From assembly GCA_023139105.1 (NCBI GenBank), contig JAGLOF010000004.1:1-64000 (forward strand): 64,000 nt of DNA, in the 5' to 3' direction. A model generated the notes under the pieces. That model was not told where the DNA came from. It worked only from the letters and a program-made list of their open reading frames with translations, and did no database searches. This document shows positions 1 to 20,799 of the stretch, piece after piece. Every line of letters starts with the position of its first letter. The first letter of the stretch is position 1. The DNA comes from a bacterium. Its GTDB lineage: Bacteria; Zhuqueibacterota; QNDG01; JAGLOF01. The position numbers and the translations under genes are program-made.

Positions 1-376
1 TAACTAGCGAATTGGAACAATAAAACATAATCCAATGCATTATAAATGCCCCCAAGTTTCACAGTAGATAATGCAAGCAGTATCCAACCATCGACCCAAC
101 GGTTATTCCTTTTTATTGCCTCTAAAAAATTTTTCTGGGCAAGTCCCCAATCCTTTGGATAATAACCTTTTTCTACATAAGCATTGAAACTTGAAAATTC
201 CCATTTATCCGGTGATGAACATAATTTATATAGAATTCATGTCTCTTTTTTACATGCTTGAAAGTTTCTCGTAATAATTCAATATTTTCAGGCTGAGTCA
301 GGATTTTTGCCCGTTTACAGGCAACAACGGTGATGAAATATATTGCTCCATTGATATAGTATCGTTTGTAATTCAT
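1..376 (-). pseudogene. REP-associated tyrosine transposase (RAYT/Y1_Tnp) remnant, internally deleted, C-terminal part in another frame
   Basis: ORF 173-376 (MNYKRYYINGAIYFITVVACKRAKIL..ENIELLRETFKHVKKRHEFYINYVHHR) resembles the RAYT N-terminus. A second minus-strand frame over about 1-205 reads DKWEFSSFNAYVEKGYYPKDWG, resembling the RAYT C-terminus. The central HxH/Tyr catalytic region is missing. Confidence 0.7.
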
Positions 377-557
377 TTATCACTTTTTTTTGTCAGATTT
401 GAGAAGAGTAATCCGACTTACGGGCTAAACGGCCCTTCTTATTAATAAGAAGCCCCGGCAGTATGTCCATAAATTTCAAAAAATATAAGCGGAATGATAA
501 GTGTAGACCCAAATTGAAACAAACAAAAATCTTCATCGCAACTTCTGGCTCAACAAT

Positions 558-2332: not shown

Positions 2333-3823
2333 TTATATTTCTTCAATCTTTTTTAACCCATTTATTGCAGCCAGATAATCAGGTTTAATATCTAATGCTT
2401 TAAGAAAATGCTCACGGGCTTTCTCAAAATTATTTTGAGAAAACTCAACCACTCCAAGATTATTAAAAATCGATGCATCTCCAGGTGCCAATTGGGCTGC
2501 TTTCTCAAAATATAACACTGCATTATCAAACTGATGTTCTCGAAAATACAGTAATCCCAAATTATAGAGTGGCTCAATACTTTCATTTTTGAGTTCAGCC
2601 GCAATGTGGTACTTTTTAATCGCTTCTAAATTCTGACTTTCACTTTCAAGTCGTTTCGCATCTTCCATTAAAATTTTATATCTATCTGGAACTGAATCTG
2701 ACTTCTTTTCAAGCTGGATTATTAAATCAGCTTCTTCAGTTCGACCAATTACGGCCATGCACTTTGCCCGGGCCCGTTGCAGACCAGGGAATTTTGGAAA
2801 AATAAGCATTGCCATTTCCATACGCGCCAATACCATTGAACAGTAATATTGATCATGCATCTGTGTTGTTTCCTTAGGTGATTCACCAACCCAAGGATAT
2901 CTGTAAGCACCTTGTTCAACCAATTTAATAGCGCGATGAATCTCATAGGAAACCTGACCCTTCCACCGCTCTCGGAAACACTTCAAAGTATCACAATATA
3001 ACCGAGATTTCGCAACCTCTTCCAGAGCTGAAAATTTAATTACATTCAGGGTCTCATATGCAAACTCGCAGAATGGGAAAAAGATACCCTCTAAATTATT
3101 CTCCGGATTATATGACATCCTAAAACTGTTATACTCTTCCAAAGTTTCATACTTTCTCTCATTATGGAACCGGCGAATAAAAAGTTCTTGGGGAACCTGA
3201 ACAAATCGTCCAAACAAGGATAATTCGCCAAGGAATACATGATCACTCCCATGGGACCTCGTACTAGTAAGATGCACTTGATGCAAAGCATCCGATCTGA
3301 TCAAACCATAAAACATACTACAGACTGTCAAATTCCAAAGTATACTTCGAAAGCGATCTTCAGGTAAATCATGATTCGCTTTCACATAATCATTTTTACT
3401 GGGTAAAGCATTCCCAGTCTCATCAATATTTTTTATCTTCGGATAACAAAGCACAATACTGTCATCATTTTCAATCACCCTCAGACACTCACTGATCATA
3501 TTGGGCTCTCTTAAATCATCGTCTGCAGCCCATAAAAAATACTCTCCTGATGATGCTGCAATAAGACGACCGCCTGTGCTTTGTGCACCCATATTTTTTT
3601 TAAATTGGTAATATTTTATCCGTTTATCCCTACCGGCATATTCCATACATATATCATAAGTAGAATCTGTTGATCCATTATCGGAAATAATTAGCTCAAA
3701 ATCTTCAAAATCTTGAGATAAAACCGATTCAATCGCCTCTGAAAGAAACCTCTCGCCATTGCAGACAGGCAATCCAACCGTGACTTTGGGCCTATTCGGA
3801 TTACTTGCGAGATTCAATGTCAT
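2333..3823 (-). CDS. Glycosyltransferase family 2 with C-terminal TPR repeats
   Basis: VTVGLPVCNGERFLSEAIESVLSQDFEDFELIISDNGSTDST GT2 fold; C-terminal TPRs (EPLYNLGLLYFREHQFDNAVLYFEKAAQLAPGDASIFNNLG). Confidence 0.9.
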   Translation of the reverse strand: MTLNLASNPNRPKVTVGLPVCNGERFLSEAIESVLSQDFEDFELIISDNGSTDSTYDICMEYAGRDKRIKYYQFKKNMGAQSTGGRLIAASSGEYFLWAADDDLREPNMISECLRVIENDDSIVLCYPKIKNIDETGNALPSKNDYVKANHDLPEDRFRSILWNLTVCSMFYGLIRSDALHQVHLTSTRSHGSDHVFLGELSLFGRFVQVPQELFIRRFHNERKYETLEEYNSFRMSYNPENNLEGIFFPFCEFAYETLNVIKFSALEEVAKSRLYCDTLKCFRERWKGQVSYEIHRAIKLVEQGAYRYPWVGESPKETTQMHDQYYCSMVLARMEMAMLIFPKFPGLQRARAKCMAVIGRTEEADLIIQLEKKSDSVPDRYKILMEDAKRLESESQNLEAIKKYHIAAELKNESIEPLYNLGLLYFREHQFDNAVLYFEKAAQLAPGDASIFNNLGVVEFSQNNFEKAREHFLKALDIKPDYLAAINGLKKIEEI

Positions 3824-3859: not shown

Positions 3860-4639
3860 TTACTTGATTCTTCTTAAATATCCATCCGGTGCGGCTGTTA
3901 TCAACAATTTATTATTAAAACTCTTGTCTATTTTAAAGCAATTTGTACTTTTCAAGTATTCATACACAGCAGTCTTTGGGTTATTGCCTTTATCCCATGG
4001 CCGGTCAGAACAAAAATCTTGAGGCAAATCTTCAATTCCTGTATCCCATACTACGCAATAGCTACCGACAGAAGTTAACGGTGCATAGGACATTAACTCT
4101 GATAGTACATGGTCATGTGTGTGATTTGAGTCGAGGAAAATTAGTATTTTATCATAATTTTGTGCAATTTCATGGACTTGATGAACAGTATCATCAGCAA
4201 TAGAAGACCCCTCTATCATCTTTATCAGATGTGTCATCGGATGTACCTCAATCGCTTCCCGATTATGAGAACGAATATCGATATCAATACCGAGTACAAG
4301 CCTCTCTGAATCCACCGGGTTTAGAGGTTTGCCCATTTCAACAGCATCACAATAGTCCAACATTGCCAACATGGATGCACTCATTATTAGTGAACCCCCA
4401 TGAGCGATACCGGTTTCAATAATAAGGTCAGGTTTAACTTCCCATACAAGTTCCTGTATTGCATATATATCTTGGGGTATTTGTATAATCGGCCGACCAA
4501 GCCATTGAAAATTATGCGCATAATTGTATCGAATTGCCTCACGAATCCATATATTGGACAAACCAAGAAAGTCTCGGTCATTCGAAATCGCATCTAAATT
4601 CCTCTGAACATCAGCCTTAAAGTCATTAATTGGGTTCAT
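3860..4639 (-). CDS. CmcI/cephalosporin-hydroxylase-family protein (likely SAM-dependent O-methyltransferase)
   Basis: WLGRPIIQIPQDIYAIQELVWEVKPDLIIETGIAHGGSLIMSASML and LIFLDSNHTHDHVLSELMSYAPL are typical of the CmcI family. Confidence 0.8.
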   Translation of the reverse strand: MNPINDFKADVQRNLDAISNDRDFLGLSNIWIREAIRYNYAHNFQWLGRPIIQIPQDIYAIQELVWEVKPDLIIETGIAHGGSLIMSASMLAMLDYCDAVEMGKPLNPVDSERLVLGIDIDIRSHNREAIEVHPMTHLIKMIEGSSIADDTVHQVHEIAQNYDKILIFLDSNHTHDHVLSELMSYAPLTSVGSYCVVWDTGIEDLPQDFCSDRPWDKGNNPKTAVYEYLKSTNCFKIDKSFNNKLLITAAPDGYLRRIK

Positions 4640-4706: not shown

Positions 4707-6302
4707 CTAAATCAAATTAAAAGCAATGGCATATTTTTTCCATTTTTCATTGTTTGCAACTAAATCAGCAAAGGCATTCTTATGCTTCACAGACAATTCA
4801 GCCTTACCATTCAACTGCTCATAAGCCTTTGAGAGATAGTAATGCGCAAAGGCATGGGATGGATGGTTTTCAACAACATTGCTGAAATACCCCTTTGCTA
4901 CATCATACTCGCCTGTTTTCATGCGGTGATTATTTACGAAGTTAACATCCAAATTTACTTGATAAATATATTCTGTTAATACATCAGGATCAATTTCTGA
5001 AGTCCTTATCGTCGCCTGATATACATGTGAATCCAAAAGATCATTATTGTCGTCAATATATCCCTTTTCTAAACATATGTCATATAATCTACTACCTTTT
5101 AATGGAGCTGCGGCAGAAATGTTTGACCAATCAATACCCACGTCCTTTATTAGGTCTACCGTTGCCTTCCGATCCTCTTCCCGTTCTCCAGGAAGGCCAA
5201 AAATAAAAAAACCATGCACAAAAAACCCAAGCTTTCTTAATAATTTTGTAGCAGGCTTAACATCAGAAAGTTTCATGGGTTTATCTATAATGTTTTTCAA
5301 AACATATTCAGAACCTGATTCAATAGCCAGATTAACTACTTCAAGGCCCGCTTTTTTTAATAATAAAGCGATTTCCTCATCTATAAACTTTACATTTAAA
5401 CCGGTTGGGAATTCCAGACTCATATTTAATCCGACTACTGCTTCTAAAATCTTTTTGATTCGACCTTTATCAATTAATGATTGATCATCATTGATAACAA
5501 GCCTCCTCATATTATATTTTTCCTTTGCCCTAATTATGTCAGAGATAACTCTCTCTGCACTCATAAATCTTACCTTTTTACCAGAAAGAGAACCTGCAGC
5601 GCAAAATATACAATTGAAAGGACAACCCCGGGTCGTAATAAACGGCAACCTAACCATCCCATTTTCATCTCTGGCTATCGGATTATTATTACGATATCTA
5701 GAATCATATTTGTCAATATCAATCATAGAAAAATCAATTGGTGGTATTTCATCGAGATTGTGGATAAAAGCTGCTACAGGGATTATTCCTTTTGCAATTT
5801 TTTTATGTGTAATCCATGAAGGCGATTTCTCCATGGCTTCAAAAGGATTATCAGCCTCAATCAAATCTAAAACAGGAACTTCGCCTTCTGAAAAACATGC
5901 TCCATCAATATACCCATTATGCTTGAACAGTAATTTATAGGCATTGGTAGAAACATTGCCTCCCACTACCAATAATATGTCGGGATTTTTGTCTTTTACA
6001 TAGACTGAAAATTCATTAACATAATCAAACATTGAGCTGAACAATCCAGAAATACCTACGATATCAGGTTCAAATTCTTCAATTTTTCTCTCTAAAATAT
6101 CTTTATAGTGGATATTCCTGCTCGCATTTAAATCTAATATTTGAATTTGAATATTTTTTTTACTATATACTTTGACATAAGAGGCTATTGAAAGTAGTCC
6201 ATAAGGTAATTCTTTGTAGGAAGCAACACTTTCTCCTGTCAATTCATGTGTAGATTTGGACGGAGGCATAATAAATAATATATTTTTTATTATTTTTTTC
6301 AT
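4707..6302 (-). CDS. B12-binding radical SAM protein with C-terminal TPR-like segment
   Basis: B12-binding-like N-terminus; radical SAM motif TTRGCPFNCIFCAAG; C-terminal HAFAHYYLSKAYEQLNG TPR-like helix pair. Confidence 0.87.
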   Translation of the reverse strand: MKKIIKNILFIMPPSKSTHELTGESVASYKELPYGLLSIASYVKVYSKKNIQIQILDLNASRNIHYKDILERKIEEFEPDIVGISGLFSSMFDYVNEFSVYVKDKNPDILLVVGGNVSTNAYKLLFKHNGYIDGACFSEGEVPVLDLIEADNPFEAMEKSPSWITHKKIAKGIIPVAAFIHNLDEIPPIDFSMIDIDKYDSRYRNNNPIARDENGMVRLPFITTRGCPFNCIFCAAGSLSGKKVRFMSAERVISDIIRAKEKYNMRRLVINDDQSLIDKGRIKKILEAVVGLNMSLEFPTGLNVKFIDEEIALLLKKAGLEVVNLAIESGSEYVLKNIIDKPMKLSDVKPATKLLRKLGFFVHGFFIFGLPGEREEDRKATVDLIKDVGIDWSNISAAAPLKGSRLYDICLEKGYIDDNNDLLDSHVYQATIRTSEIDPDVLTEYIYQVNLDVNFVNNHRMKTGEYDVAKGYFSNVVENHPSHAFAHYYLSKAYEQLNGKAELSVKHKNAFADLVANNEKWKKYAIAFNLI

Positions 6303-6323
6303 CTCAACTCCATTTCGTATATC

Positions 6324-7454
6324 TTATATCAATAAGAGTTTCAATAATTCTTCACGCTTTTCAAATAAACTTTTATCAACTATCGAATAGACTTCACAAC
6401 ACTCACAAGCAAGAATCCCGTTATAATTCATTTTAAGAAGGTTTCTTTGCCTAGCCTTTAATCCGCTTGACATGAGAATACTTTTTATTGAATCTGACTG
6501 TTGGATATTCCCTACAATCAATTCCTTCATGGCATCGGCACAGCACATTGATACATCGCCGTCGGCATGTACCATCAGCAAATAAAAAGGCTGCTCGCAT
6601 GGAACTGGCCGTCGATATGGACCTCCATCTGTTATCCTCTTGATGGAATCCACCCAATTAAATAATTTTCTATATTGAATAATTACATTTGCCATGTCAT
6701 TAATTTTTTCTTCAAAATATTCTTGAATCTTCAGTGTCTCCTCAACAATTTCCTTGTCCTCTGATTTAGGATCTGCACATAAAACAGTCAATGTTACGGG
6801 TAGATGATCGGATCTCATCAAATTAATGCACGCATCTATATTCGTTAGTACTATCTCAGCAAAATCAGCTCCTTTCACCTCACGAAATTTCTTGGGCGAA
6901 ATAATATCTAGACTTACTCGAATACTTGTTATGCCGGCAACAACCAAATCCATAAACACTTGTTTACTAAGCAGTACACCATTTGTCACCAAAATAATCT
7001 GTTCTGCAATATCTGCTTTCTTAGCAATATCCACCATTTTAACAATATCAGGATTTAACAGTGGTTCTCCATTGCCATGCAAATAAAGCACCTTGAGTTT
7101 TCCTATGCCCTGGCATTTCTTGACTGTCTCTTTAAAAAGATCCAAATCTATATGCATTTTAGGTGGGGTCATCTTTCTATTTTTTGAATTGTCCGTTGTT
7201 GAAAGACTCTTACTATGCATGCCACAAAAAGAGCACGTCAAATTACATCTTGATGTGGCTTCCACAACCAAGACCGCCAATGTATTATTAATTAAGCCCT
7301 GTTCAATGCCCCGGATCCTTTCTGCTATTTTAGCTGCATTACATGCATCAGCAGGCACAGCACTTGGGATACTTGAATGGTTCATATCAGCTTTCTCCTT
7401 ATTCATCAGAACACTACTTATCTGACGATCTCGTGCTGTTCTCAAATAGGTCAA
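6324..7454 (-). CDS. Radical SAM protein with SPASM-like C-terminus
   Basis: EATSRCNLTCSFCGMHS (CxxxCxxC); HADGDVSMCCADAMKELIVGNI and CECC at the C-terminus. Confidence 0.87.
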   Translation of the reverse strand: MTYLRTARDRQISSVLMNKEKADMNHSSIPSAVPADACNAAKIAERIRGIEQGLINNTLAVLVVEATSRCNLTCSFCGMHSKSLSTTDNSKNRKMTPPKMHIDLDLFKETVKKCQGIGKLKVLYLHGNGEPLLNPDIVKMVDIAKKADIAEQIILVTNGVLLSKQVFMDLVVAGITSIRVSLDIISPKKFREVKGADFAEIVLTNIDACINLMRSDHLPVTLTVLCADPKSEDKEIVEETLKIQEYFEEKINDMANVIIQYRKLFNWVDSIKRITDGGPYRRPVPCEQPFYLLMVHADGDVSMCCADAMKELIVGNIQQSDSIKSILMSSGLKARQRNLLKMNYNGILACECCEVYSIVDKSLFEKREELLKLLLI

Positions 7455-7786
7455 TTAAAAAAATCATCCATTGCAGGAACTTCAAAACCGAATTAACTGA
7501 TACTTGTCCAAAGACAGTATATTTAAATCAAGAAGCTCGATTTTACTGGGCTATTTACATTCGCCTTCATGTATTCATCAATCGAAAGGATGCCATGCGG
7601 AATTATTGAAGCTGGCAGCAATACATTTATTTCCGATTTGCTTAAACAGTTTTCTATGTTAATACATAAAAAAGTTACATATAAGCCCCTTTGCATTGTG
7701 TCTCCTGAATACCTAACATCATAAAACCTACCATAGGAGGAGGCCCTCTTAGAAACCGGCAGCTTAACTAGCGTAACCAGAAGTCT

Positions 7787-9025
7787 CTATGGAGCATAAT
7801 GAACATCACCAAATCCCAACACAATCACTTTTCCCTTGAAACCAACTTTTTCTGTCAGATACCGGTACATTTCCATACTGTGTGTAGGAGCTCCAATAAC
7901 AACCACATCTAGCTCCGTTGCTTTTTTTAGCACCTCTATTGAATCAACTTTCTTTCCATCAATGGTTTTACACTGGGTTCTTTTATCACCATCAATAAAA
8001 TATTTAATATTGCAATCTCCAAGTCCGCTCATTCCCAGCATCATCTGAGCATGAATACCAAGCCCCCAAAGATATACTGTTGTTTTTTTTAATGCTAAAT
8101 TAGCAAGGACCTCGTTATTGTCTAAAGAAATACTTTCAAACCAACGCTTAACTTTTCGAGCCAGTTCAAAATTGGGCCTCACTGAACCACGTTGTATATT
8201 GACTTTTCTGAAGATCCCCCCGACACAAGGCATCAACAATTCTCCCTCCACCCGTAAATGATGTACAATTTTCAACTTTTCATAACCATTCGTTTCAAAC
8301 AAATTACATAGATGATGTACATCAAAATGATTTACATGTTGAAGGTAAAAGTAACGTAAGGGAGAGACCGAATTCACAGCTTCATATTTACTGGCATCGG
8401 GCACTTCCACATAAACTATGCCGTCCTTTGTAAGTTTGGAATGAACCTCTTGGATGGCTTGAGGCAAATCGAGAACATGTTCAATGATATGAGCAAGAAC
8501 AATAACATCTGCACTACTGATTTCCAAAGGCAAATCTGCCATCGAGCCAATTTCACCATTAATCCCATTTTTTTTTATCAGCACTTCAACACATGACGGC
8601 GCCGGATCCACACCACAGAGATTTGCATATCCCGACAACTGCAATGTTTCAAGTAATCGACCGACACCACAGCCTACATCAAATATTGAGGCATCTTTAT
8701 TCTTAATAAATGGTGCGATTACTCCTTCTATCCTACTAAAATACTTTATCTCATCTGCACTAACCTCTCGATCAATGTAGGCAGAACTATAAAAAGATTT
8801 TTCGTAAAAACGAGTATAATCATCCTGTGATGAAGGCGTGTCATAGAAGACAAGACCGCACTTACTGCAACAGATAGCGTCATATGATCCCGCTAATGGG
8901 CTGTCATCAAATAATGTGTAACTCAGGCGTCCCAATACTGCACCATATTCTGACCGACAGACGGGGCAAAAATAGTTAAGTTTTTTTATCTGAGAGAGTC
9001 CTTCTTCTGAAATTCGCTCAAACAT
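7787..9025 (-). CDS. Class I SAM-dependent methyltransferase with N-terminal zinc-ribbon-like segment
   Basis: CPVC..CSKCGLVFYD; ASIFDVGCGVGRLLETL SAM-binding motif; C-terminal nucleotide-binding-like domain. Confidence 0.82.
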   Translation of the reverse strand: MFERISEEGLSQIKKLNYFCPVCRSEYGAVLGRLSYTLFDDSPLAGSYDAICCSKCGLVFYDTPSSQDDYTRFYEKSFYSSAYIDREVSADEIKYFSRIEGVIAPFIKNKDASIFDVGCGVGRLLETLQLSGYANLCGVDPAPSCVEVLIKKNGINGEIGSMADLPLEISSADVIVLAHIIEHVLDLPQAIQEVHSKLTKDGIVYVEVPDASKYEAVNSVSPLRYFYLQHVNHFDVHHLCNLFETNGYEKLKIVHHLRVEGELLMPCVGGIFRKVNIQRGSVRPNFELARKVKRWFESISLDNNEVLANLALKKTTVYLWGLGIHAQMMLGMSGLGDCNIKYFIDGDKRTQCKTIDGKKVDSIEVLKKATELDVVVIGAPTHSMEMYRYLTEKVGFKGKVIVLGFGDVHYAP

Positions 9026-9040
9026 TCCAATTCCTACTTT

Positions 9041-10639
9041 CTATATTTGGTCTTTCAAAATTCTGTGTATATCGGCCTTAGTATGGCTTTTTTGGAAAGA
9101 TGAAATCGAAATCAATGGTGAATCACCGCCAAATCGATTTTTTACTTGCCGCTCAATAACGTCAAAATCTGAACCCAGGAATGAATAAGTAACACACCAA
9201 AATGGTGGCGCGCTAGTTTTCTCATTATATCGGATTAACAGATCATCTTTACTTTCCAAGTTGAAGCCTGCTTCTGTATCAATATCAATATACCCCAGAC
9301 AATTCCCCCAATTTAAAGACGCCAATTTCCTCATCAGTGTCTTGTAATAATAATGCCTTGTCGTTCCAATTAACACCCACGGCTGCAAATCAACTATTTC
9401 CATTCTCTCGAATAAAGTTTCATCACGATTCATCACTTTGTCTATTTGTTCTATATAATTGATGGCTAAATCATAATCCACCTTATTCAATTTTAACTGT
9501 AAGTCAGAAATCCCATCGATATCCGGCCTAAACCAGTCAAATCGATGTTTGTTAAATGCCTCAGGAAGATATTGATGTTCAAAACAATAATCATATAATT
9601 CAGTCCCTGGATATGGGGTATAGAAAAAGGAATTCACACTATCCGGTTTTGCCTTTTTTACAAATTCTAAGGTACAACGGTAATCCTCTTCATCCTGAGT
9701 AGGAATTCCAAACATAAGATTGATTACACAATTTAAGCCATTCTCATGGCAGACTTCTACGGCCCTACATGCATCATCAACTGTTTGCCGTTTATTTAAA
9801 AATTCTAACAACTTGGGAGATGCAGTTTCAATACCAAAATTAACAGTTTCTACTCCCATCCGTATAAGCTCTTGAGCAATATTTGCAGTAAAGCAATCAG
9901 CCTTAGCGGAAACTTGGCTGCTAAATGCGGCCTTTGAATTTGATTCTTCCATAATTTTTCGAAACTTTTTTAATCTGTTAAGATTACATGCAAACAAATC
10001 ATCAAGAAAATGGAAATTCCTGACTCCATAGTTATTGTATAATTTCAACACACACTGCACAATATTTTCAACCGGGTGCGATATAAATTTTTGTTTCCCG
10101 GAATGGCAAAAACGACAATTATAAGGGCAACCGAGAGCCGTCAATACAGTCGCTGTTTCTGTAGCTTTCATACGCTCAATCTGACTCTTCGAATAGAAAT
10201 ATTCAGTATATAATTCCTTATTAGGGTGTGATTTACCGGAAATAATCTCACCACTAAACCCCATATACTTATCAAGAATCTCCTTCCATATCCCCATCCC
10301 ATCTCCAGCTACTACGGCGTCAAATAAACCGGTCAGAGCAATATCCTTCGGCATCAAAGATGGATGAATTCCACCAGCAATAATTTTTGCAGGGACAATA
10401 CTCTGAATGTCCTCAGCCAGAGACAATGCCTGGCTTCTCTCCCAGGATTTAAATGAGAAACCGATTAAATTCGGCCTATATTTTTCAATATAAAATGCGA
10501 GGTCCGAACTCTTGTTACCATTAGGGGGTACAAAATATATATCGGCTTCCCATCCATATTTACATGTGAGTGAACATAACATTGATACGCCTAGATTGGA
10601 ATTCTCTGTAAAAATGATCATTAATAGTTTGTTCAACAA
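9041..10639 (-). CDS. B12-binding-domain radical SAM protein
   Basis: KIIAGGIHPSLMPKDI..FDAVVAGDG and TALGCPYNCRFCHSGKQKF. Confidence 0.88.
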   Translation of the reverse strand: MLNKLLMIIFTENSNLGVSMLCSLTCKYGWEADIYFVPPNGNKSSDLAFYIEKYRPNLIGFSFKSWERSQALSLAEDIQSIVPAKIIAGGIHPSLMPKDIALTGLFDAVVAGDGMGIWKEILDKYMGFSGEIISGKSHPNKELYTEYFYSKSQIERMKATETATVLTALGCPYNCRFCHSGKQKFISHPVENIVQCVLKLYNNYGVRNFHFLDDLFACNLNRLKKFRKIMEESNSKAAFSSQVSAKADCFTANIAQELIRMGVETVNFGIETASPKLLEFLNKRQTVDDACRAVEVCHENGLNCVINLMFGIPTQDEEDYRCTLEFVKKAKPDSVNSFFYTPYPGTELYDYCFEHQYLPEAFNKHRFDWFRPDIDGISDLQLKLNKVDYDLAINYIEQIDKVMNRDETLFERMEIVDLQPWVLIGTTRHYYYKTLMRKLASLNWGNCLGYIDIDTEAGFNLESKDDLLIRYNEKTSAPPFWCVTYSFLGSDFDVIERQVKNRFGGDSPLISISSFQKSHTKADIHRILKDQI

Positions 10640-10666
10640 TCCACTCCCCTTAATTCCCTTGCAAAA

Positions 10667-12001
10667 TTAGAACTTATCTTTTTTTAGATGCTGATTAATC
10701 TGATATTTTTCCATATTCACTTGTAGTGTCTTCAGCTTGCTAGCCCATAACTTTAACTTCAAATTGTCCGGGAAATACTCACTAAAATGAAAAACAGACC
10801 CCTTAGATTGTTCAAACAGGCCGTAGTTCATTGATCCATGCTTGAAACAGATATCACCCTCTTTGGAAAAAACAGCCTTCTCACGCTGGCACGCCAGGAA
10901 CCAATCCACGGGATCATCGCCGAAGATCCTAGAAAAGTTAATTGACTTCTTTTCACTGGATCGCAGAGAGATATAATGCTTATGAAGTGCAATTTCCGTC
11001 TGCTCCGCTGAGAACCGTGCCCGCACGAACTGCGCGGCCCTGCGTCCCATGGCTACCCGTTCTTCAGGATATTCATGCAGCCACTGGATGGCTTTGGCAA
11101 ATGTCTTCTGGGATTGAACGATCAGCCCTGTTTTCTGGTGCTCCACAATGTGGCGCTCGGCAGGATTGTCTAATACTACCGGAACTACACCAATGGCCAT
11201 CGCCTCAAGAAGCGCATTTTCGGCTGTACCATAATGCTTTGGGTTCATGAGATAAACAAGCACATTAATTTTCGAGAGCTCAGGGATAATATCATCCGTG
11301 TATCCCCTGAAATTCAGCAGTTCAGGCCTTCCAAGCCGGGAACACTGTTTCGTAAGGACTTCACGATTTGTCGGATCACCTATCATTCGCACGCTGAAAT
11401 CCGGCAAGCCAACGGCTGCCAAGTAATCGACATAATCGGGATGAAGCTTTGAAAAATTGAGACTGCCTACATAACCGGCAACCATCGTCTGTTTATTTCC
11501 CTCCACCGGCTCAGGGAAACCTTCAAAGCCGCCGCTGCTTGAGACCACACCGAACCGTTTTCTCACCTCCCCAGGCATCACCGCCACCTCCCGGCTTTCA
11601 TAAGAACAGGGCGATGTAAAAAGAAAGCAATGGGTCGCTTCAAGTAACTTTGATGGAAATATAGGGGTGTACAGTCCAGAGACATGGCTCCATACCATCA
11701 GCCGCATGGGCCGCTCCGGCAAAGCACAGAGGGCCTCCAACGTTGCCGGATGATTCCACCACTCAAGCTGCACGACATCTGCATGATCAATCAACTTCAC
11801 CAGCGACGATGAGTCAGGCTGAATGATCACTTCACATCCAACACGCCTGATTTTATCGATAAAAAACGTCCGTTCCGGCTTCTCAAAGCAGACCCACCGA
11901 TGCTGTACACCAAAACCTGAAATTGCCGACTGAGCCGCGAGACCACTCATCACTTTACCAACGCCCCCGCCAAGATGGGCTGTCAGATGGAGGACATTCA
12001 T
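10667..12001 (-). CDS. Glycosyltransferase family 1/4-like
   Basis: MNVLHLTAHLGGGVGKV; ENALLEAMAIGVVPVVLDNPAERHIVEHQKTGLIV. Confidence 0.87.
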   Translation of the reverse strand: MNVLHLTAHLGGGVGKVMSGLAAQSAISGFGVQHRWVCFEKPERTFFIDKIRRVGCEVIIQPDSSSLVKLIDHADVVQLEWWNHPATLEALCALPERPMRLMVWSHVSGLYTPIFPSKLLEATHCFLFTSPCSYESREVAVMPGEVRKRFGVVSSSGGFEGFPEPVEGNKQTMVAGYVGSLNFSKLHPDYVDYLAAVGLPDFSVRMIGDPTNREVLTKQCSRLGRPELLNFRGYTDDIIPELSKINVLVYLMNPKHYGTAENALLEAMAIGVVPVVLDNPAERHIVEHQKTGLIVQSQKTFAKAIQWLHEYPEERVAMGRRAAQFVRARFSAEQTEIALHKHYISLRSSEKKSINFSRIFGDDPVDWFLACQREKAVFSKEGDICFKHGSMNYGLFEQSKGSVFHFSEYFPDNLKLKLWASKLKTLQVNMEKYQINQHLKKDKF

Positions 12002-13056
12002 TTCTTCAGCACCTGTCGAGACGCAATGAGACGAACTGAAAGTTCATCCGCATAGGGATCTATATTATCAGGAAGGCAATGCGACAGTTGACTGCACTGA
12101 CCGCATATGGCATGTGCCTTCCGCTTGCCTTGAAGCTGCGACAGCTGATGCCTGTAAAGCGGCTCACCATCCCAAATACTTTTCAGGCTTTGAAATCTGA
12201 CATCACCAATCAACAGTTTATGCGACCAGTCCAGGAAGCACAAACTAACAGAACCGTCAGAATTGACTGAAATCATGTAGAATATATAAGGGCAGGTATT
12301 CACATCACTGAGAGGCTGGTCATAAATCCCTTTTGTAATCTCTACATCCAAATGGTCTTCCACATCAAATTCCGGCCAGCAGGGAGCGACATTCTCAATA
12401 AAGATCCGGTCGGCTATATCTCCAAATGTGAGATAAAACCTCTCTTTCTCATCCTCGGTCAAGAAATCTCCGGCGATCTTAATGGCGATTTCACACTGGC
12501 CTTTTATATCATAGAGTCTGGCGATATTTTCGACATAGTGGTCAAAATCCAACTCAACCCCAGAAAACTCTAAAAATTGCCGGCTAGACATGCCATTGAC
12601 AGAAATATTTATCTTGTCGAGACCTGCATCAAGAATAGGCTTCATCCGTTCAGGATCGCACAATAAACCATTAGTAGTGGTATCAATATATTGTACAGAG
12701 CCACTCTGCTTGGCATAGTGCACCATATCGGCAAGTCGGGGATTGAGCAACGGCTCACCCTCTTTATAGAGCCGGAGTACTTTAAGGGGCTTGTCAAAGT
12801 CTTTCAGATCATCGATAATTTTCGTATAAAACAGGAAATCCATCAGTCCCTGCCATCGTCCCGAATCCCGAATTATCTGATGATCTCCGGTGGGACAAAA
12901 CTTACACTTGAAGTTGCACAGGCTGGACGGATCGACAAATAGAATCATCAGTGTCGAAAGCGGGATTACTGTTTCCAAGCGTGTTCGATTTTCAAGATTG
13001 ATTCTTGGTTTTATCTTAGCCTTCATCAATTTCCTCAATGATCTCAATGTTAACAT
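11998..13056 (-). CDS. Radical SAM protein with SPASM domain
   Basis: DPSSLCNFKCKFCPTGDHQ; SLCFLDWSHKLLIGDV..CGQCSQLSHC. Confidence 0.88.
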   Translation of the reverse strand: MLTLRSLRKLMKAKIKPRINLENRTRLETVIPLSTLMILFVDPSSLCNFKCKFCPTGDHQIIRDSGRWQGLMDFLFYTKIIDDLKDFDKPLKVLRLYKEGEPLLNPRLADMVHYAKQSGSVQYIDTTTNGLLCDPERMKPILDAGLDKINISVNGMSSRQFLEFSGVELDFDHYVENIARLYDIKGQCEIAIKIAGDFLTEDEKERFYLTFGDIADRIFIENVAPCWPEFDVEDHLDVEITKGIYDQPLSDVNTCPYIFYMISVNSDGSVSLCFLDWSHKLLIGDVRFQSLKSIWDGEPLYRHQLSQLQGKRKAHAICGQCSQLSHCLPDNIDPYADELSVRLIASRQVLKK

Positions 13057-13071
13057 CAGAACAATATGTAT

Positions 13072-13920
13072 TTATTCAGGAAACAATATTTTATTTAATT
13101 TTAGGGAACTCCCCCAAAACTCCATGGGCTCATACTCAGGATAAGGATAGACACCATAATCCAATTCTATATTACGTCCTTTTTCGTACAGATAATTTTC
13201 GACTAATTCCCTTATCGCTATCGGCTGACCACTACAGCAGTGAATCACACCATTAACTTCATTCTGTATTGCGGCCGTGACTATATATTCTGCTGCTGTT
13301 TCTACGGAAAGATAATCACGTAACTGCCTGCCGCCTGACATCGGGAATACTGAATCTCCTTTCGACAGCGCGGTATCAAGTTGTGACAACAGTGATTTAG
13401 AACTCTGCCCCCTACCATGCAGGTAAAACAAACGCAGCCATTTCATTGAAAAAGCATTTGTACTCTGAAACTGCTCAAGCCACTCTCGCAGCTTATTTTT
13501 CGCAGAACCATATGCAGTTACTGGTAAAGCAGCCATATCTTCAGTCAGACATCCTTCCTGAAGACCATATTCAAGACATGTACCAGTGACAGTAAGATTC
13601 TTTAATCCACCTTCAATCATATTCTTTAGAAACATAACATGCATTGGAAAAATCTTTTCCACATGTATCTTTTCTTTATAGTTATCCAGCGCATCCCAGG
13701 CCAGATGAATGAGAATCTGTGGTTTTCCAAAATACTCATACAGGTTGTCAGAGCAACTGTTAAAATCATATAATTTATATTCAATTTCATTATACCAGTC
13801 ACATTGTGCTGCCTGATCAGATTTATTAGACGTAGCAATGACTTCATGCCCATTACTCATAGCATGGGCAACCACATAATTCCCTACAAAACCGGTAGCA
13901 CCTGTAACCAGTATCTTCAT
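13072..13920 (-). CDS. NAD-dependent epimerase/dehydratase (SDR)
   Basis: MKILVTGATGFVGNYV Rossmann motif; sugar-nucleotide SDR features. Confidence 0.88.
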   Translation of the reverse strand: MKILVTGATGFVGNYVVAHAMSNGHEVIATSNKSDQAAQCDWYNEIEYKLYDFNSCSDNLYEYFGKPQILIHLAWDALDNYKEKIHVEKIFPMHVMFLKNMIEGGLKNLTVTGTCLEYGLQEGCLTEDMAALPVTAYGSAKNKLREWLEQFQSTNAFSMKWLRLFYLHGRGQSSKSLLSQLDTALSKGDSVFPMSGGRQLRDYLSVETAAEYIVTAAIQNEVNGVIHCCSGQPIAIRELVENYLYEKGRNIELDYGVYPYPEYEPMEFWGSSLKLNKILFPE

Positions 13921-13945: not shown

Positions 13946-14497
13946 TCAGGATATAAAATCCTTATCCTTTTGAAAATCAGTATAAAACCGATCTTTCTCA
14001 GAAATAACCCGGGGTTCAATTTCCGGCCATTTAATATTGAACACGGGATCGTTCCACTTTATACCCCTAGCAAATTCCGAATGATATGTCTCGGACATCT
14101 GATAAAAAACCACTGAATCATCCTCAAGTGTTTGGAATCCGTGTGCGAATCCTTCGGGGATATACAGCAGCTGATAATCCTCAGAATGGAGTTCAATTGC
14201 GAACCATTCACAGTATGTAATTGAATCGGGTCTCAGATCAATAATCACGTCATATATTGCACCTTTTGTACAGCTGACCAGCTTAGCTTCCTGAAATGGT
14301 GCTGATTGGAAATGCATACCGCGCAATGTCCCTTTATTTTTGTTTTGAGAGACATTGCATTGAACAATGGAAAACTCAAGATTATACTTTTTAAAGTCAT
14401 CCTGACAGAAACTTCTGGCAAAAAAACCTCGTTCATCACATAACATGTCCAGTTCTATTACATAGGCTCCCCTGAGTCTGGTTTCAATTAATTTCAT
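13946..14497 (-). CDS. rfbC: dTDP-4-dehydrorhamnose 3,5-epimerase family protein (RfbC-like)
   Basis: DERGFFARSFCQDDF, GTLRGMHFQ, YIPEGFAHGFQTLEDDSVVFYQMSE. Confidence 0.92.
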   Translation of the reverse strand: MKLIETRLRGAYVIELDMLCDERGFFARSFCQDDFKKYNLEFSIVQCNVSQNKNKGTLRGMHFQSAPFQEAKLVSCTKGAIYDVIIDLRPDSITYCEWFAIELHSEDYQLLYIPEGFAHGFQTLEDDSVVFYQMSETYHSEFARGIKWNDPVFNIKWPEIEPRVISEKDRFYTDFQKDKDFIS

Positions 14498-15735
14498 AAC
14501 TGCACGATCCTGGGCTCAGGTATGGGTATTATAAAACGGCCGCCTCTTTCAAGATATTCTTTTTGTTGTGCGATAATTTCATCTACAAAATTCCATGTAA
14601 GAAGCAGTACATAGTCCGGCATCTCATCTATCAGGCTGATAGGTGATTTAATAGGAATATGAACACCCGGCATATAATGACCCTGTTTATGTATATTCCT
14701 GTCCACAACAAAATCTATATACTCTCTGCCTATTCCGAAATAATTAAGCAGTGTACTGCCTTTAGCCGCTGCACCATATGCCGCAATACTTTTCCCTTCT
14801 TCTTTCAGTAGATTCAGCCGAACTAGCAACTCTTTTTTTAATAATTCAACCCTACCGGCAAAGTTATTATAAACTGACAGCTGATTCACACCCCACAGCT
14901 GTTCCTCCATCAGTAAAGCGGAAACGGATTCATCAGATTTTTCACTTCCCGTATGAGCAATAAACAACCTTAGAGTTCCACCGTGAATTGCTACTCGTTC
15001 TATCTGAACAACATCCAGTCCCCACTGTTTAAAAAGAGTATTCAAAGCTGTAAGTGAAAAATAACAAAGATGTTCATGATAGATTGTATCAAATTCACAT
15101 TTATCCAGTAAATCCTTAACATAAGGCACTTCTATAACGACAACACCGTCATCATTTAAAAGTATTTTCAGCCCATTTACAAAACCATTAAGATCAGGCA
15201 CATGAGCCAGAACATTATGAGCATGGATGACATCAGCACCACCTCGTTCTGATTTCAGGCTACAAGCAGCTTTATCAGTAAAAAACTCGGTGACTGTGGG
15301 AATACTTCTTTCATCACGTGCATACTGAGCTATATTCAGTGCAGGTTCAAAGCCAAGAACAGGAATTCCTGCCTTTTGATAATATTGCAACAGATAGCCA
15401 TCGTTGCTGGCTATCTCAACAACAAAACTGTCGCTGTTCAGATTTTGTTGGTCAATTACTTTATCAACAAGATTACTTGAATGCTGCAGCATAGTCTCAG
15501 AAAATGAAGAAAAATAGAAATAATCGCGAAACATCGTTTCCGGAGAAACTGTCTCTGTTAACTGTGCCAGCGAACAGTTAGTGCACAGTGCAAGCTCCAG
15601 AGGGAATTCGGCTTCAGGTGTTTCTGGATACTGTTCATCAAGCAGCGAATTTGCCAGTGGTGTCTGTCCCAGGGATAGTACAATATCGAGACCGCGTCGA
15701 CCACATGCCCGGCAGACTGTATCAGAAACGATCAT
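14494..15735 (-). CDS. Sugar C-methyltransferase family (N-terminal Zn-binding + SAM-MT + C-terminal domain)
   Basis: [67 protein letters not shown]; same architecture as TylCIII/NovU-type C-methyltransferases. Confidence 0.88.
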
Positions 15736-16748
15736 TTAACCTCTCCAAAATATTGTCCGTACCAATTAATCGTACGAAACAAGCCGTCTTCCAAAGTAAA
15801 TAGGGGTTCCCATTTCAGCAACCTGCGGGCCTTGGATGCACTTAGAAACTGATGCAGGATTTCATTGGAGGCTTCATTCTTAATATCAGGTACAAGGTCA
15901 GAATCCATCAACCTCAAAATAGTTTTTACAAGATCAATAACAGTAATTTGATTTTCATATGAAAAGTTGAAAGCCTGTCCATGTATTGAGCAGTCATCCA
16001 TTTTTTCTGCTAATTTTATATAGGCTGCTGCACCGTCTTCGATGTAAATATAATCACGTATAAACTGTCCATCAGATCGAATAACAGGCCGCTGTCCACG
16101 AATCACTGAACGTATAGTTCCAGGAACAATACGGTTCCAATTAAGATCTCCGCCGCCAAAAAAATTGCCGCATCGAGTAATAGTCACAGGCAGCTTATAT
16201 GATTTATAATACATCTGAGCAATTAAATCAGCACATGATTTACTAACATCATAGGGATGCATCCCCTGCAGGGGCATCTGTTCGTCATAAGGCAACTGTA
16301 ATTGATCACCATAAGCTTTGTCCGATGAAGCCAATATCACCCGGCTGACTTCAGGAGAGCGTCTGCAGGCCTCCAGCAGCTTGTATGCCCCGCCTATATT
16401 GCTCTCAAATGTTGAAACGGGATTGCGATTGGCAACCTGCACTATGGTCTGGGCAGCAAGATGAAATACTGTATCTATCTCATATTCACCAAGAACTCTT
16501 TCAAGCAGTGCCTGATCTTCAATCTGGCCTCTGACTACAGTTGCTTTTTCACTCAAATTACTTCTATTGAACTGACTGTCGGGTACCCAATCCCTAACCA
16601 GACAAATCACATCAGCACCGGCATTGATAAGCTGCCGGGTCAACCAGCCACCGAGGAGTCCAGTGGCTCCGGTTATCAGTGTTGGTCTGTCCTGCCAGAA
16701 TTTGCGGCTCAAGTCCACACTTTCCACGGTACGTCTCCCTGCTCCCAC
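15732..16748 (-). CDS. rfbG: CDP-glucose 4,6-dehydratase
   Basis: [48 protein letters not shown]; adjacent to rfbF. Confidence 0.9.
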
Positions 16749-17554
16749 AATTGATTAAGATATAAAAAGTCCCGATATGTGTCCATGCATTGCCAGAAAC
16801 CTTTATGCTTATAGACCATAAGTTCCTTACTCATGGCCAGGGCCTCCAGCGGATCATTCTCAAAATTCTGATTCTGATTGGCATCAATATGGTCAAACAC
16901 AGCCCGGTTAAAAACAAAAAAACCACCGCTGATCAAACTGCAGGTTGATTTGGGTTTCTCCTCAAAACGAAGTACATGCTTCCCTCGAATGGATAATTCG
17001 CCAAACTTTGACGGTGGATTCACACCGGTGACAGTTCCCGTTTTTCCATGACCTTGATGATAGCTCAATAAATCTGATATATCAACATTGGCGATGCCAT
17101 CTCCGTAGGTCAGCATAAATGTATCTGTATCGATATATTTTTCAATTTGCTTGACGCGTGCCCCGGTATTGGTGTTTAAACCGGTATCCGCCAGCGTGAT
17201 CCGCCAGTTTTCAATTTCCCGGCCAGAATGCAGTTCTATACCATCATGCTTGCCAATATTCAATGTAAAATCATTACTCATCATAGCGTAATTCAAAAAG
17301 TATTCTTTTATCATCCACCCTTTGTAGCCCAGGCAAAGAACAAAATCAGTTATACCGTAAGAGGCATAAGTTTTCATTATATGCCATAAAATAGGCTGTC
17401 CACCAATTTCCACCATGGGCTTTGGCCTATACTCTGTTTCTTCGCGTAACCGGGTTCCCATACCACCACATAAAATAACCGCTTTCATAATCCACCCCAA
17501 AAACCTTGAATTTATTAGATAGTCATAATGGCGACTAAACGGCACAAAAGACAT
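16709..17554 (-). CDS. rfbF: Glucose-1-phosphate cytidylyltransferase; likely start is the internal [12 protein letters not shown]
   Basis: [57 protein letters not shown] is the RfbF signature. Confidence 0.94.
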
Positions 17555-17965: not shown

Positions 17966-18973
17966 TCAATCATCTATCGTCAGACTGACACGGAAATCAT
18001 CCTCAGGTTCCTGGTGTATCTTCCCATCAAATAACGAAGCCTTAGTTCCATCACCCTGTTTCAACCAATATTTTGCCACATACGCGCAAATACGATTAAA
18101 AACGCTAATTTCCATATCATCAAGCTCCGCCTCAACCCTCTCAACCCATTGCTCATACATCATTACAGCAGATTTTTTATCCTTACGCTTCTCATAAACA
18201 AAACCCAACAGATGTAGTGCCTCAAGGTTAGAGGGATCAAGTTTGTATGCATTGGCAAAAAACGGCTCTGCCTGTTTAACTAAATCAAGAGCCAGGCAGA
18301 CTTCACCCAAATGAAAGAAACCGTCAGCATGTTCTTGGTCCAGGGTCACCACTTTATTGAATGCAGCCAGAGCAGATTCCCACTTCTCCTGTTCCTTCAG
18401 CACCACACCAAGGACAAAATGCAGAGATACTTCTTGGGGATGAGAGACTAAACTCACACGCAAAGCGTCTTCGGCTTTCTGCCACATGCCGCGTTCAATA
18501 TAGATAACAGCCACTAAATTACCGGCATCCGGATGCTGCGGTGCTAAACGAAGTACTTCTTCCCAGAAACTGAGCGCATCATCCGTTCGATCGAGTGTCT
18601 GGGCGCAATGTCCCATACGGATCAAAGATTCAATATCCTGAGGCTGACGGCGTAGCACTTCCTTATAAAAAGAAAGGGCACTCCCTGCTTCACCACGCTC
18701 TTCAAAAAGCAAACCCAGATTAAAATAAGCGGCAGTTAAATCAGGATTTACAGAAAGAGCTTCCTGAAAGTAACGTTCAGCTATCTCCTGATGCCCCTGC
18801 TGAAAGGCTACCAGGCCAAGGCTAACGCGAATATCCGGATCATCGGGACGATCCTGTAAAGCTTTCTCGAATAATGCCTGCGCTTCATTCCATTTGTTTT
18901 CAGACAATAAATTATTGCCGTGTTCAAGCATTTCATCAATTGATTTATAAGATTGTGTGTCATTCCTTGACAT
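17966..18973 (-). CDS. Tetratricopeptide repeat protein ending [14 protein letters not shown]
   Basis: Seven or more TPR-like repeats; ATG at 18973 overlaps the csrA 3' end (ORF track uses TTG at 18976). Confidence 0.9.
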
Positions 18974-19205
18974 CAACGGATCCTCCGAATCCTATAAGTT
19001 TCTGAGCATTCTCTAAAGTAGTAGATAGTGCGGCACGACGATTTTCTTCTACAATTTTATCGTATATTTCCTGGCGGTGAACACTGACATTACGAGGTGC
19101 ATCAACGCCAATCTTCACACTCTGCCCCTGAACAGACAGCACTGTGATCTTGACATCATCGCCAATTCTAATGCTTTCACCGGATTTTCGTGTTAAAATG
19201 AGCAA
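18960..19205 (-). CDS. csrA: Carbon storage regulator CsrA
   Basis: [51 protein letters not shown]. Confidence 0.98.
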
Positions 19206-19217
19206 TTCGTCCTCCCC

Positions 19218-19652
19218 TCAAACCTGCGAAGTCAGTGGGTGACGTAATGAATATTTTGAATCTGCCAAAATTATCTGACGGCCAGACCGTTCAGTTTTTG
19301 CAATCAGCAAGGGAGCACGTAAATTAACTGTAACATTTTCAGTTGATCCGCCAATGGCCACAATCAGAAACACTGCGTCATCTCCGGACATATCCGGAAT
19401 AAGCGGATTATAATCCGGTAAAAGATCTGAGGCTAAAATAACAGGAAACATCAATTCCGGCTTATCAATTGAGATCAGCCATCCGAAGGGGCGGTATTTA
19501 ACTTGATCATAAAGAAGATAAGATCGTTGTTCCTCATAACCAACTATACCTTCAGGAAAAATCAACACTTCCGATGGTGTGTATATAATCTGCCCAAACT
19601 GGCTGTCCAGAACTTTTTCAGTAGAGGCGGTGTTTTCATCGATTGAAGTCAT
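19218..19652 (-). CDS. fliW: Flagellar assembly factor FliW
   Basis: FPEGIVGYEEQRSYLLYD..PFGWLISIDKPELMFPV; adjacent to csrA. Confidence 0.95.
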   Translation of the reverse strand: MTSIDENTASTEKVLDSQFGQIIYTPSEVLIFPEGIVGYEEQRSYLLYDQVKYRPFGWLISIDKPELMFPVILASDLLPDYNPLIPDMSGDDAVFLIVAIGGSTENVTVNLRAPLLIAKTERSGRQIILADSKYSLRHPLTSQV

Positions 19653-19668: not shown

Positions 19669-20799
19669 TTAGAGATAATCTAATAATGTGTTTTTAATCA
19701 ATCTGGCAGAGGTCTGCAAGGATGCCTGATATACAGCCTGATCGCGCTCCAGTTGCAGCAGTGCTCCGGCAATATCTGTATCTTCAATACTTGACATCAG
19801 TCGTTTATAATTTAAAATATCTGCACTTAACTTGAATTTTTGATCATCCAGCCGATTAATCTTTGTTCCAACTTCTCCCTGAACACCGGTGGCCCGATCC
19901 AGGTTGCTTGAAAGAGCATCCCTGGCACCTTGAAAAGAATCTCTCTCATTTCTGATCAGTGCATTATAAGCATCATGCAGTGCTGCCTGCAATTCATTAG
20001 TATCACCAAAAACTTGCGTAGCAGAAACATTGATCTTCATCTGCATGCCTTCATCAATAACGCGGTTGATTTCGCCGGAGACACCTTCCGGATTTAATTC
20101 AACAGCCACCGGAGAATCCGTATCGTAATCAATTAAAAAATCCGTTGCATCCGCCATGGATCCGGAGGAATGTACTGTAATAGCACCATTTTTATAATCT
20201 ATGGAATAATCACCTCCGGATGTGGCGTCACCCTCAGTATATGTGACACTGCCATCAGCACTTGTTACATTAACAGTACCGGAAGAGAATCCAACATTAT
20301 TAAGATAAACTGAAGTATCATGTGACGAAACGAAAGTTTCATCGTCACTTTCCGAGATTTTAGAGTATGGTTCTGTCAGATTGTTTGTACCACCAAAGAT
20401 ATACTTGCCGGCAAATGATGTATTTCCAATGTCTATTGCCTGATTCCAAAATTCCTTCATCTGTAAAGCCTGCATAGCTCGCTCTTCAGCACCCAGAGTA
20501 TCATTGGCTGCCTGAAGCATCATATTATCAGCACGCGTTATAAGATCCACTACATTCTGTATAGCATTTTCTGTAGTTAAAATAAGCTGATTAGCATCAT
20601 CAATATTCTTTTCATACCGTTCTGTACGGCGCACCTGGCTCTTCAGCTGCATCAGACGTGTGGTGCCACCGGGATCATCAGATGGCTTATGAATACGTTT
20701 GGCCGTAGACAGATCCTGTTGTGTCTTGATCATCCGGCTCATAGACCTGTTGATATCACTTAACAGGTTGTACGATTTCATTCTTTCAGATACACGCAT
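19669..20799 (-). CDS. flgL: Flagellar hook-associated protein FlgL
   Basis: MRVSERM..SRMIKTQQDLSTAKRIHKPSDDPGGTTRLMQLKSQV; flagellin-like ends. Confidence 0.95.
   Translation of the reverse strand: MRVSERMKSYNLLSDINRSMSRMIKTQQDLSTAKRIHKPSDDPGGTTRLMQLKSQVRRTERYEKNIDDANQLILTTENAIQNVVDLITRADNMMLQAANDTLGAEERAMQALQMKEFWNQAIDIGNTSFAGKYIFGGTNNLTEPYSKISESDDETFVSSHDTSVYLNNVGFSSGTVNVTSADGSVTYTEGDATSGGDYSIDYKNGAITVHSSGSMADATDFLIDYDTDSPVAVELNPEGVSGEINRVIDEGMQMKINVSATQVFGDTNELQAALHDAYNALIRNERDSFQGARDALSSNLDRATGVQGEVGTKINRLDDQKFKLSADILNYKRLMSSIEDTDIAGALLQLERDQAVYQASLQTSARLIKNTLLDYL

Follow-up and report, generated by a model that had tools for sequence, protein, structure and literature searches.

Flagellar glycosylation islands, Twitch dehydrogenases, the diol dehydratase AprD4 and C-methyl sugars are each already known. 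BtrN, a radical S-adenosylmethionine (rSAM) enzyme of the Twitch type, removes two electrons from an alcohol and has an auxiliary cluster with four Cys ligands (PMC9012708), while AprD4 deoxygenates a pseudodisaccharide and GenK and GenD1 are B12 rSAM C-methylases of aminoglycosides, so that sugar precedents for both deoxygenation and C-methylation exist in aminoglycoside pathways (PMC5461906). Here we describe a bacterial locus in which these themes appear to meet. In a 64,000-nucleotide stretch of contig JAGLOF010000004.1 (assembly GCA_023139105.1, phylum Zhuqueibacterota; hereafter the window), four intact rSAM genes lie within 8.35 kb on the minus strand, at 4707-6302 (rSAM1), 6324-7454 (rSAM2), 9041-10639 (rSAM3) and 11998-13056 (rSAM4). 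We propose, with a probability of roughly 60%, that they belong to an island for flagellar glycosylation in which an unusual sugar derived from cytidine diphosphate (CDP) is built, has its carbons tailored by radical chemistry and becomes a glycan destined for flagellin. Gene content, motif conservation, synteny and fold could be read directly here.

Each of the four proteins passes the Pfam Radical_SAM model PF04055 (58-77 bits against a cut-off of 29.5) and carries a CxxxCxxC motif, bearing out the four rSAM open reading frames (ORFs) marked in an initial annotation of the window; rSAM2 and rSAM3 have TTG start codons, and their true starts possibly lie further in. The same annotation had called two of the proteins B12-binding and two SPASM-like. 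The first label holds by Pfam, with rSAM1 and rSAM3 passing PF02310 (57 and 43 bits against 32.1) through an N-terminal domain. The second does not: rSAM2 and rSAM4 pass the SPASM model PF13186, but both have the four-Cys, one-cluster Twitch pattern rather than the seven-Cys SPASM motif, CX9-15GX4C...CX2CX5CX3C...C (PMC6231123), rSAM4 conserving four auxiliary Cys only and rSAM2 lacking the later Cys. None of the four reaches an NCBIfam equivalog cut-off, maturase-type models included.

Across its 5.29 Mb the genome has 41 matches to PF04055, and four of them would fall inside 7.8 kb anywhere with a probability of about 0.001 under uniform placement; because operons cluster genes anyway, this null is too easy, and the same site in relatives is the better control. 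Twenty other genomes of the phylum have 9.8 kb or more of sequence downstream of fliW, and in that region each carries 0-2 rSAM genes, with at least one in eight of the genomes, counts that are possibly slightly low given that the local hidden Markov model recovered six of seven known rSAM controls. Four are found only in the window and in a second genome of the phylum, G017. The density is thus unusual for a flagellar site, as had been suspected from the window.

The anchor of the locus is rSAM4. Seven of its Cys residues (47, 51, 54, 255, 273, 318 and 321) are invariant in 24 homologs, three belonging to the S-adenosylmethionine (SAM) cluster and four being auxiliary; the auxiliary set, C255, C273, C318 and C321, has BtrN spacing (CX17C ... 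CX2C) and aligns with the BtrN auxiliary domain. A profile comparison with BtrN gives 1.5e-24, and the predicted structure (predicted local distance difference test, pLDDT, 93.5) finds BtrN as its top fold match (6.6e-14), then DesII and BlsE. As modelled, rSAM4 is a BtrN-type Twitch enzyme, an rSAM barrel with a Twitch domain that holds one auxiliary cluster. rSAM2, which is 27% identical to rSAM4, has C70, C74 and C77 as its SAM-cluster motif and C286-X17-C304 and C350-X2-C353 in Twitch spacing, a pattern read from its own sequence; its placement in the rSAM tree carries a long-branch warning and is untrustworthy.

The rSAM1 model (pLDDT 85) matches the folds of AprD4 (1.6e-21), MgmA (1.4e-19), CysS (1.7e-17) and TsrM (2.7e-17), then OxsB and TokK, a list that on modelling leaves deoxygenation and C-methylation both possible, and AprD4 is also the best solved relative of rSAM3 by sequence (1.5e-12). 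Neither protein approaches the 500-bit cut-off of the AprD4 family NF033070 (71.5 bits for rSAM1, 58 for rSAM3). That AprD4, a sugar diol dehydratase, is the best fold match of one such enzyme means that a B12-binding-like domain is no proof of B12 use. Orthologs of rSAM1, 36-41% identical, occur in five genomes outside the phylum set; rSAM1 and these orthologs end in a TPR-like tail (about the C-terminal 90 residues), in keeping with the island's TPR-rich glycosyltransferases. On the same strand, 7523-7696 is the decayed N-terminus of a fifth rSAM gene, of the B12 type and like rSAM1, with 39% identity over 56 residues before a frame break; it scores 40 bits, whereas the highest of 100 shuffles reaches 25.8. 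The closest solved relatives or folds of the island's rSAM proteins, BtrN, DesII, BlsE and AprD4, act on sugars or aminocyclitols; with the CDP-sugar genes that accompany them, these matches would make radical chemistry on sugar, one of the roles first suggested, the likeliest.

To judge from their sequences, those partner genes probably encode a route to a CDP-6-deoxy-3-C-methyl sugar ending in two glycosyltransferases of family 2 with TPR tails (GT2-TPR). In transcription order, all on the minus strand, the route begins with RfbF (16709-17554), which exceeds the equivalog cut-off for glucose-1-phosphate cytidylyltransferase (TIGR02623, 355.6 bits against 300) and matches structure 1tzf at 3.5e-89. 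There follow a nucleoside diphosphate (NDP)-glucose 4,6-dehydratase of the CDP-glucose type (15732-16748; TIGR02622 205 bits, below the cut-off of 278), 63% identical to the gene beside RfbF in G017; a sugar 3-C-methyltransferase of the TylC3/TcaB9 type, not an rSAM enzyme (14494-15735; PF08421 and PF08484; 2.5e-94 to D-mycarose 3-C-methyltransferase); an RmlC-type 3,5-epimerase (13946-14497; TIGR01221 175 bits, above 155.75); and a short-chain dehydrogenase/reductase (SDR) of the NAD-dependent epimerase/dehydratase family (13072-13920; PF01370 1.7e-23), a probable 4-ketoreductase that lies upstream of rSAM4 in several related loci too. After rSAM4 come a family 4 glycosyltransferase (GT4; 10667-12001), identified by Pfam and by synteny as its conserved partner, then rSAM3 and a class I methyltransferase with an extra C-terminal domain (7787-9025; PF13489 2.3e-21), similar genes to which adjoin rSAM4 homologs at two related loci (L044, L045) and lie near them at two more (L047, L050). 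Beyond the relic, rSAM2 and rSAM1 stands a CmcI/rhamnosyl O-methyltransferase family gene (3860-4639; PF04989 2.5e-90), presumably for sugar O-methylation, with copies 57-63% identical in the alphaproteobacterial and Arenimonas rSAM4 loci. The two GT2-TPR genes (2333-3823 and 558-2294; Pfam Glycos_transf_2 and TPR) close the series; the last, with a SunS-like N-terminal half (TIGR04195, 88 bits, under the cut-off of 350), is a probable flagellin or protein glycosyltransferase. The window begins at the contig end, and no riboswitch, cobalamin class included, was matched by Rfam within it.

This series directly continues a flagellar block, also on the minus strand: flgK (20816-22195, assigned by sequence and homologous to the flgK-position genes of Romboutsia and G017), flgL (19669-20799, likewise assigned and carrying a Flagellin_N match), fliW (19218-19652; PF02623 1e-24) and csrA (18960-19205; PF02599 3.4e-26), with a TPR protein (17966-18976, Pfam) between csrA and the sugar genes. 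The site recurs in G017, whose order flgI-flgJ-flgN-flgK-flgL-fliW-RfbF-dehydratase leads into further sugar genes and the four rSAM genes. The view of the locus as a glycan-modification island at a flagellar site is upheld. Further afield, Romboutsia has flgK-flgL-fliW, fliC, two GT2-TPR genes, rSAM4-GT4 and CDP-sugar genes, and Nitrospira has RfbF..rSAM4-rSAM1-GT4 followed by glycosyltransferases and fliC-fliD on one strand. GT2-TPR proteins glycosylate flagellin, and 11 of 35 other genomes of the phylum have such genes downstream of fliW. Flagellin_N has only one match in the genome besides flgL, a flagellin gene close to the beginning of contig C201; fliS and fliD come after it, and before it lies a piece of a possible sugar gene that weakly matches polysaccharide pyruvyltransferase (0.00011, just below cut-off). 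A join of the island contig (C158) to C201 is plausible.

Two further observations concern these flagellar sites. The G017 island (L012 16538-19657) has, judged by eye, genes like a NeuB-type sialic-acid synthase and a thiamine-diphosphate enzyme beside its four rSAM genes, which suggests a nonulosonic-acid-like sugar there. Separately, a 66-bp repeat (89% identical) 3' of the last island gene (window 1-426, minus strand) recurs 5' of fliC on C201 (L162 1475-1540) and runs into a reading frame, MNYKRYYINGAIYFITVVACKR..., that by eye looks like a decayed transposase associated with repetitive extragenic palindromes (REP). We rejected the repeat as an overlap between C158 and C201, whose ends do not overlap.

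The relatives of rSAM4 indicate how such genes are assembled. Scanned with a profile, 84,980 genomes yielded orthologs 45-75% identical in Prochlorococcus, Planctomycetes, Nitrospira, Alphaproteobacteria, Arenimonas, Desulfovibrio, Romboutsia and others; those of the last six groups named sit with the same CDP-sugar genes, usually beside the same GT4. At least two module genes (CDP-sugar, GT4, CmcI or rSAM1) occur at 12 of the 15 closest rSAM4 loci (L036-L050), while not one such gene is present at any of 55 distant loci (L061-L115). GT4 directly follows rSAM4 in the window and in eight related loci, is one gene away in Nitrospira, and is paired with rSAM4 in a further Rhizobiales genome too. 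One clade of the rSAM4 tree (support 97/93) contains eight rows of mixed phyla, each having GT4 next to rSAM4 or one gene away, and the gammaproteobacterial Arenimonas sequence nests with that of the alphaproteobacterium Hoeflea, patterns that argue for horizontal transfer of rSAM4. GC content at third codon positions (GC3) is 0.47-0.52 in rSAM4 and GT4 and 0.27-0.34 in the adjacent SDR, rSAM3, methyltransferase, rSAM2 and rSAM1 genes, as if the two had been acquired as a pair. The 82 genomes of the phylum contain a single ortholog of rSAM4 (42%, in G017) and none of rSAM1, rSAM2 or rSAM3, with remote homologs for rSAM3 only; a single-protein scan of genome contigs likewise returned no relative of rSAM3. 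In the order of Rhizobium RU20A rSAM4 is found in two of 298 genomes, too thin for co-occurrence statistics.

The closest rSAM4 ortholog, 75% identical, from the planctomycete GWA2_39_15 (L036 9129-10142), is interrupted by two in-frame stops, which align with a Glu and an Arg in the window protein. Selenocysteine or another recoding was considered and dismissed, as the stops (the first a TAG) are not opposite Cys; a damaged copy or a sequence error would account for them. Twitch enzymes resembling rSAM4 are also present in Prochlorococcus, which is non-flagellated and aerobic, within neighbourhoods of glycan type (L046, L054, L058).

Other sugar loci are at least as rich in such genes, and Pfam confirms each of 38 additional rSAM ORFs drawn from related loci. 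A 44-kb contig of GWA2_39_15 (L036, L156 and L157) packs 12 rSAM genes into about 33 kb of sugar locus, the damaged rSAM4 included, and among them three Twitch paralogs stand in tandem (L156 1188-4296). A sugar locus of Candidatus Saganbacteria (L051 618-12353) has seven in about 12 kb, and Bsp_15, like G017, has four. Two Saganbacteria rSAM proteins are tree sisters of two proteins from the flagellar island of G017, which suggests that parts of such islands are exchanged. We regard it as an evenly balanced proposition that rSAM enzymes are a general toolkit, exchanged horizontally, with which bacteria diversify their surface glycans, including those on flagellin: islands of 3 to 12 Twitch- and B12-type genes would change ring carbons, whether in CDP-sugars or in assembled glycans, by the dehydrogenation, deoxygenation and C-methylation known on sugars mainly from antibiotic pathways.

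For the window itself, a scheme can be drawn in which we infer the CDP-sugar or glycan substrates, the order of the steps and flagellin as the acceptor. On direct sequence support, RfbF would make CDP-glucose, the CDP-type 4,6-dehydratase would convert it to a 4-keto-6-deoxy sugar, the TylC3/TcaB9-type enzyme would methylate C3, and the RmlC-type epimerase and SDR would complete a branched 6-deoxyhexose. rSAM4 may then abstract a hydrogen at one of the ring carbons, either of this CDP-sugar or of the glycan under construction, its auxiliary cluster accepting the second electron to give a keto sugar or an epimer that the partner GT4 would pass on. rSAM1 and rSAM3 could perform AprD4-like deoxygenation or B12-dependent C-methylation on the sugar and rSAM2 a second Twitch-type oxidation, after which the O-methyltransferases and GT2-TPR enzymes would complete the glycan and attach it to flagellin. 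The rSAM4-GT4 unit, often with the entire CDP-sugar module, would travel between phyla as a cassette.

Several points weigh against this scheme. The step order and the choice between C-methylation and deoxygenation are guesses; similarity within the Twitch/SPASM group is an unreliable guide to function (PMC6231123); rSAM2 and rSAM3 have no orthologs, and only their location therefore ties them to sugar; the window dehydratase falls short of the CDP-specific cut-off that its counterparts at L036 and L043 pass; and a contig break separates the island from fliC. Moreover, many rSAM4 orthologs, in Alphaproteobacteria and others, are not near flagellin, and six of 20 genomes lack flagellin altogether. 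The initial annotation would have been undermined by homologs living apart from surface-glycan or flagellar loci, and its flagellar half is weakened in just this way, whereas its glycan half is not, the closest rSAM4 orthologs lying in CDP-sugar loci wherever the flank suffices. For this reason we have widened the reading from flagella to surface glycans: the module serves as a cassette for surface glycans, and in some hosts, among them that of the window, it is a flagellar one. The same loci away from flagellin (alphaproteobacterial, Arenimonas, Prochlorococcus and Planctomycetes) could instead mean that the island builds a general surface polysaccharide, such as O-antigen, capsule or exopolysaccharide, and lies beside flagellar genes by chance, its rSAM enzymes still acting on sugar. 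We think this unlikely, given the fliW-downstream site common to the window and G017, the recurrence of GT2-TPR genes there across the phylum, the contiguity of the Nitrospira and Romboutsia islands with fliC, and the lack of any wzx/wzy-like gene in the island by Pfam.

That the rSAM enzymes modify protein or peptide rather than sugar, whether flagellin side chains or a ribosomally synthesized and post-translationally modified peptide (RiPP) such as a glycocin, seems less probable still. Most Twitch/SPASM enzymes in model libraries are peptide maturases, and the terminal GT2 is similar, albeit below cut-off, to SunS, an S-glycosyltransferase of peptides; yet by Pfam none of the four proteins bears a precursor-binding domain of the PqqD or RiPP recognition element (RRE) type, none has the complete SPASM Cys motif, no NCBIfam maturase model is reached, the partners are CDP-sugar enzymes and the top folds are sugar or aminocyclitol enzymes. 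A precursor peptide was sought in the sole large gap (7455-7786, 332 bp), where a 57-residue ORF with a good ribosome-binding site proved to be the rSAM1-type relic; the early remark that no precursor ORF is obvious is thus confirmed at the locus, the rest of the genome not having been searched for one. A narrower alternative, compatible with the flagellar-glycan scheme, makes both B12-domain enzymes cobalamin-free sugar dehydratases of the AprD4 type. By fold and by sequence rSAM1 matches AprD4 best, as rSAM3 does by sequence, and the SDR in the operon could act as reductase partner, but both proteins pass the B12-binding cut-off, MgmA, CysS, TsrM, OxsB and TokK match as well, and the AprD4 sequence match is restricted to the rSAM core, with the family cut-off missed by far (71.5 and 58 of 500); we hold this possible, though doubtful. 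Least probable of all is a decaying or silent island, a scrapyard of horizontally acquired genes, as might be read from the relic, the two in-frame stops in the GWA2_39_15 ortholog, the mixed GC3 and the repeat resembling a mobile element at the left edge: the island has fourteen intact ORFs, closely packed and all in one direction, with conserved catalytic motifs, and their conserved adjacency argues for selection.

In the open-access literature searched we found no paper that joins rSAM enzymes in a relevant way to flagellar glycosylation or to surface glycans, and no description of rSAM-rich CDP-sugar islands on flagella or other surfaces in several phyla, a weak negative with most subscription journals outside its scope. 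Related loci in distant bacteria suggest that a radical chemistry best known from antibiotic making is put to use by microbes in decorating flagella and other surface sugars. If so, radical enzymology would extend to cell-surface and flagellin glycans, explaining unusual branched, deoxy and C-methylated surface sugars and offering a large set of candidate sugar-active rSAM enzymes. With a defined partner in GT4 and a defined nucleotide-sugar pathway, rSAM4 has a substrate that is directly testable in vitro, and cultured relatives carry the module (Romboutsia maritimum, Hoeflea marina and Rhizobium sp. RU20A).

Compared with described systems, the island combines familiar parts in an unfamiliar way. 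rSAM4 shares its four-auxiliary-Cys pattern and fold with the butirosin dehydrogenase BtrN, but is only about 17% identical to it, is longer (352 against about 250 residues) and keeps company with CDP-sugar and GT4 genes rather than with an aminocyclitol antibiotic cluster. rSAM1 has its best solved fold and sequence relative in the apramycin enzyme AprD4, which acts on a sugar, yet differs from it by its TPR-like tail, its match to the B12-binding family and its distance from the AprD4 family cut-off. In domain order and fold rSAM1 also resembles the class B, B12-dependent C-methylases (GenK, TokK, CysS), and both rSAM1 and rSAM3 carry the Pfam B12-binding domain, but their cobalamin use is putative and no characterised family cut-off is reached. 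TIGR04295 (B12_rSAM_oligo) is a named NCBIfam family of B12-domain rSAM proteins whose short name suggests that others had already remarked such genes in oligosaccharide loci; rSAM3, at 31.6 against a cut-off of 400, is not a member. With the TylC3/TcaB9 and other NDP-3-C-methyl-6-deoxy sugar pathways the island shares the set of C-methyltransferase, RmlC and SDR, while differing in its CDP carrier, signalled by RfbF in place of a thymidine diphosphate (TDP) carrier, and in its rSAM tailoring. Like known flagellar glycosylation islands between flgKL/fliW/csrA and fliC, it is defined by its position, nucleotide-sugar genes, methyltransferases and GT2-TPR glycosyltransferases; what sets it apart is a CDP-sugar route together with four rSAM genes, where 20 other same-site loci of the phylum have none to two.

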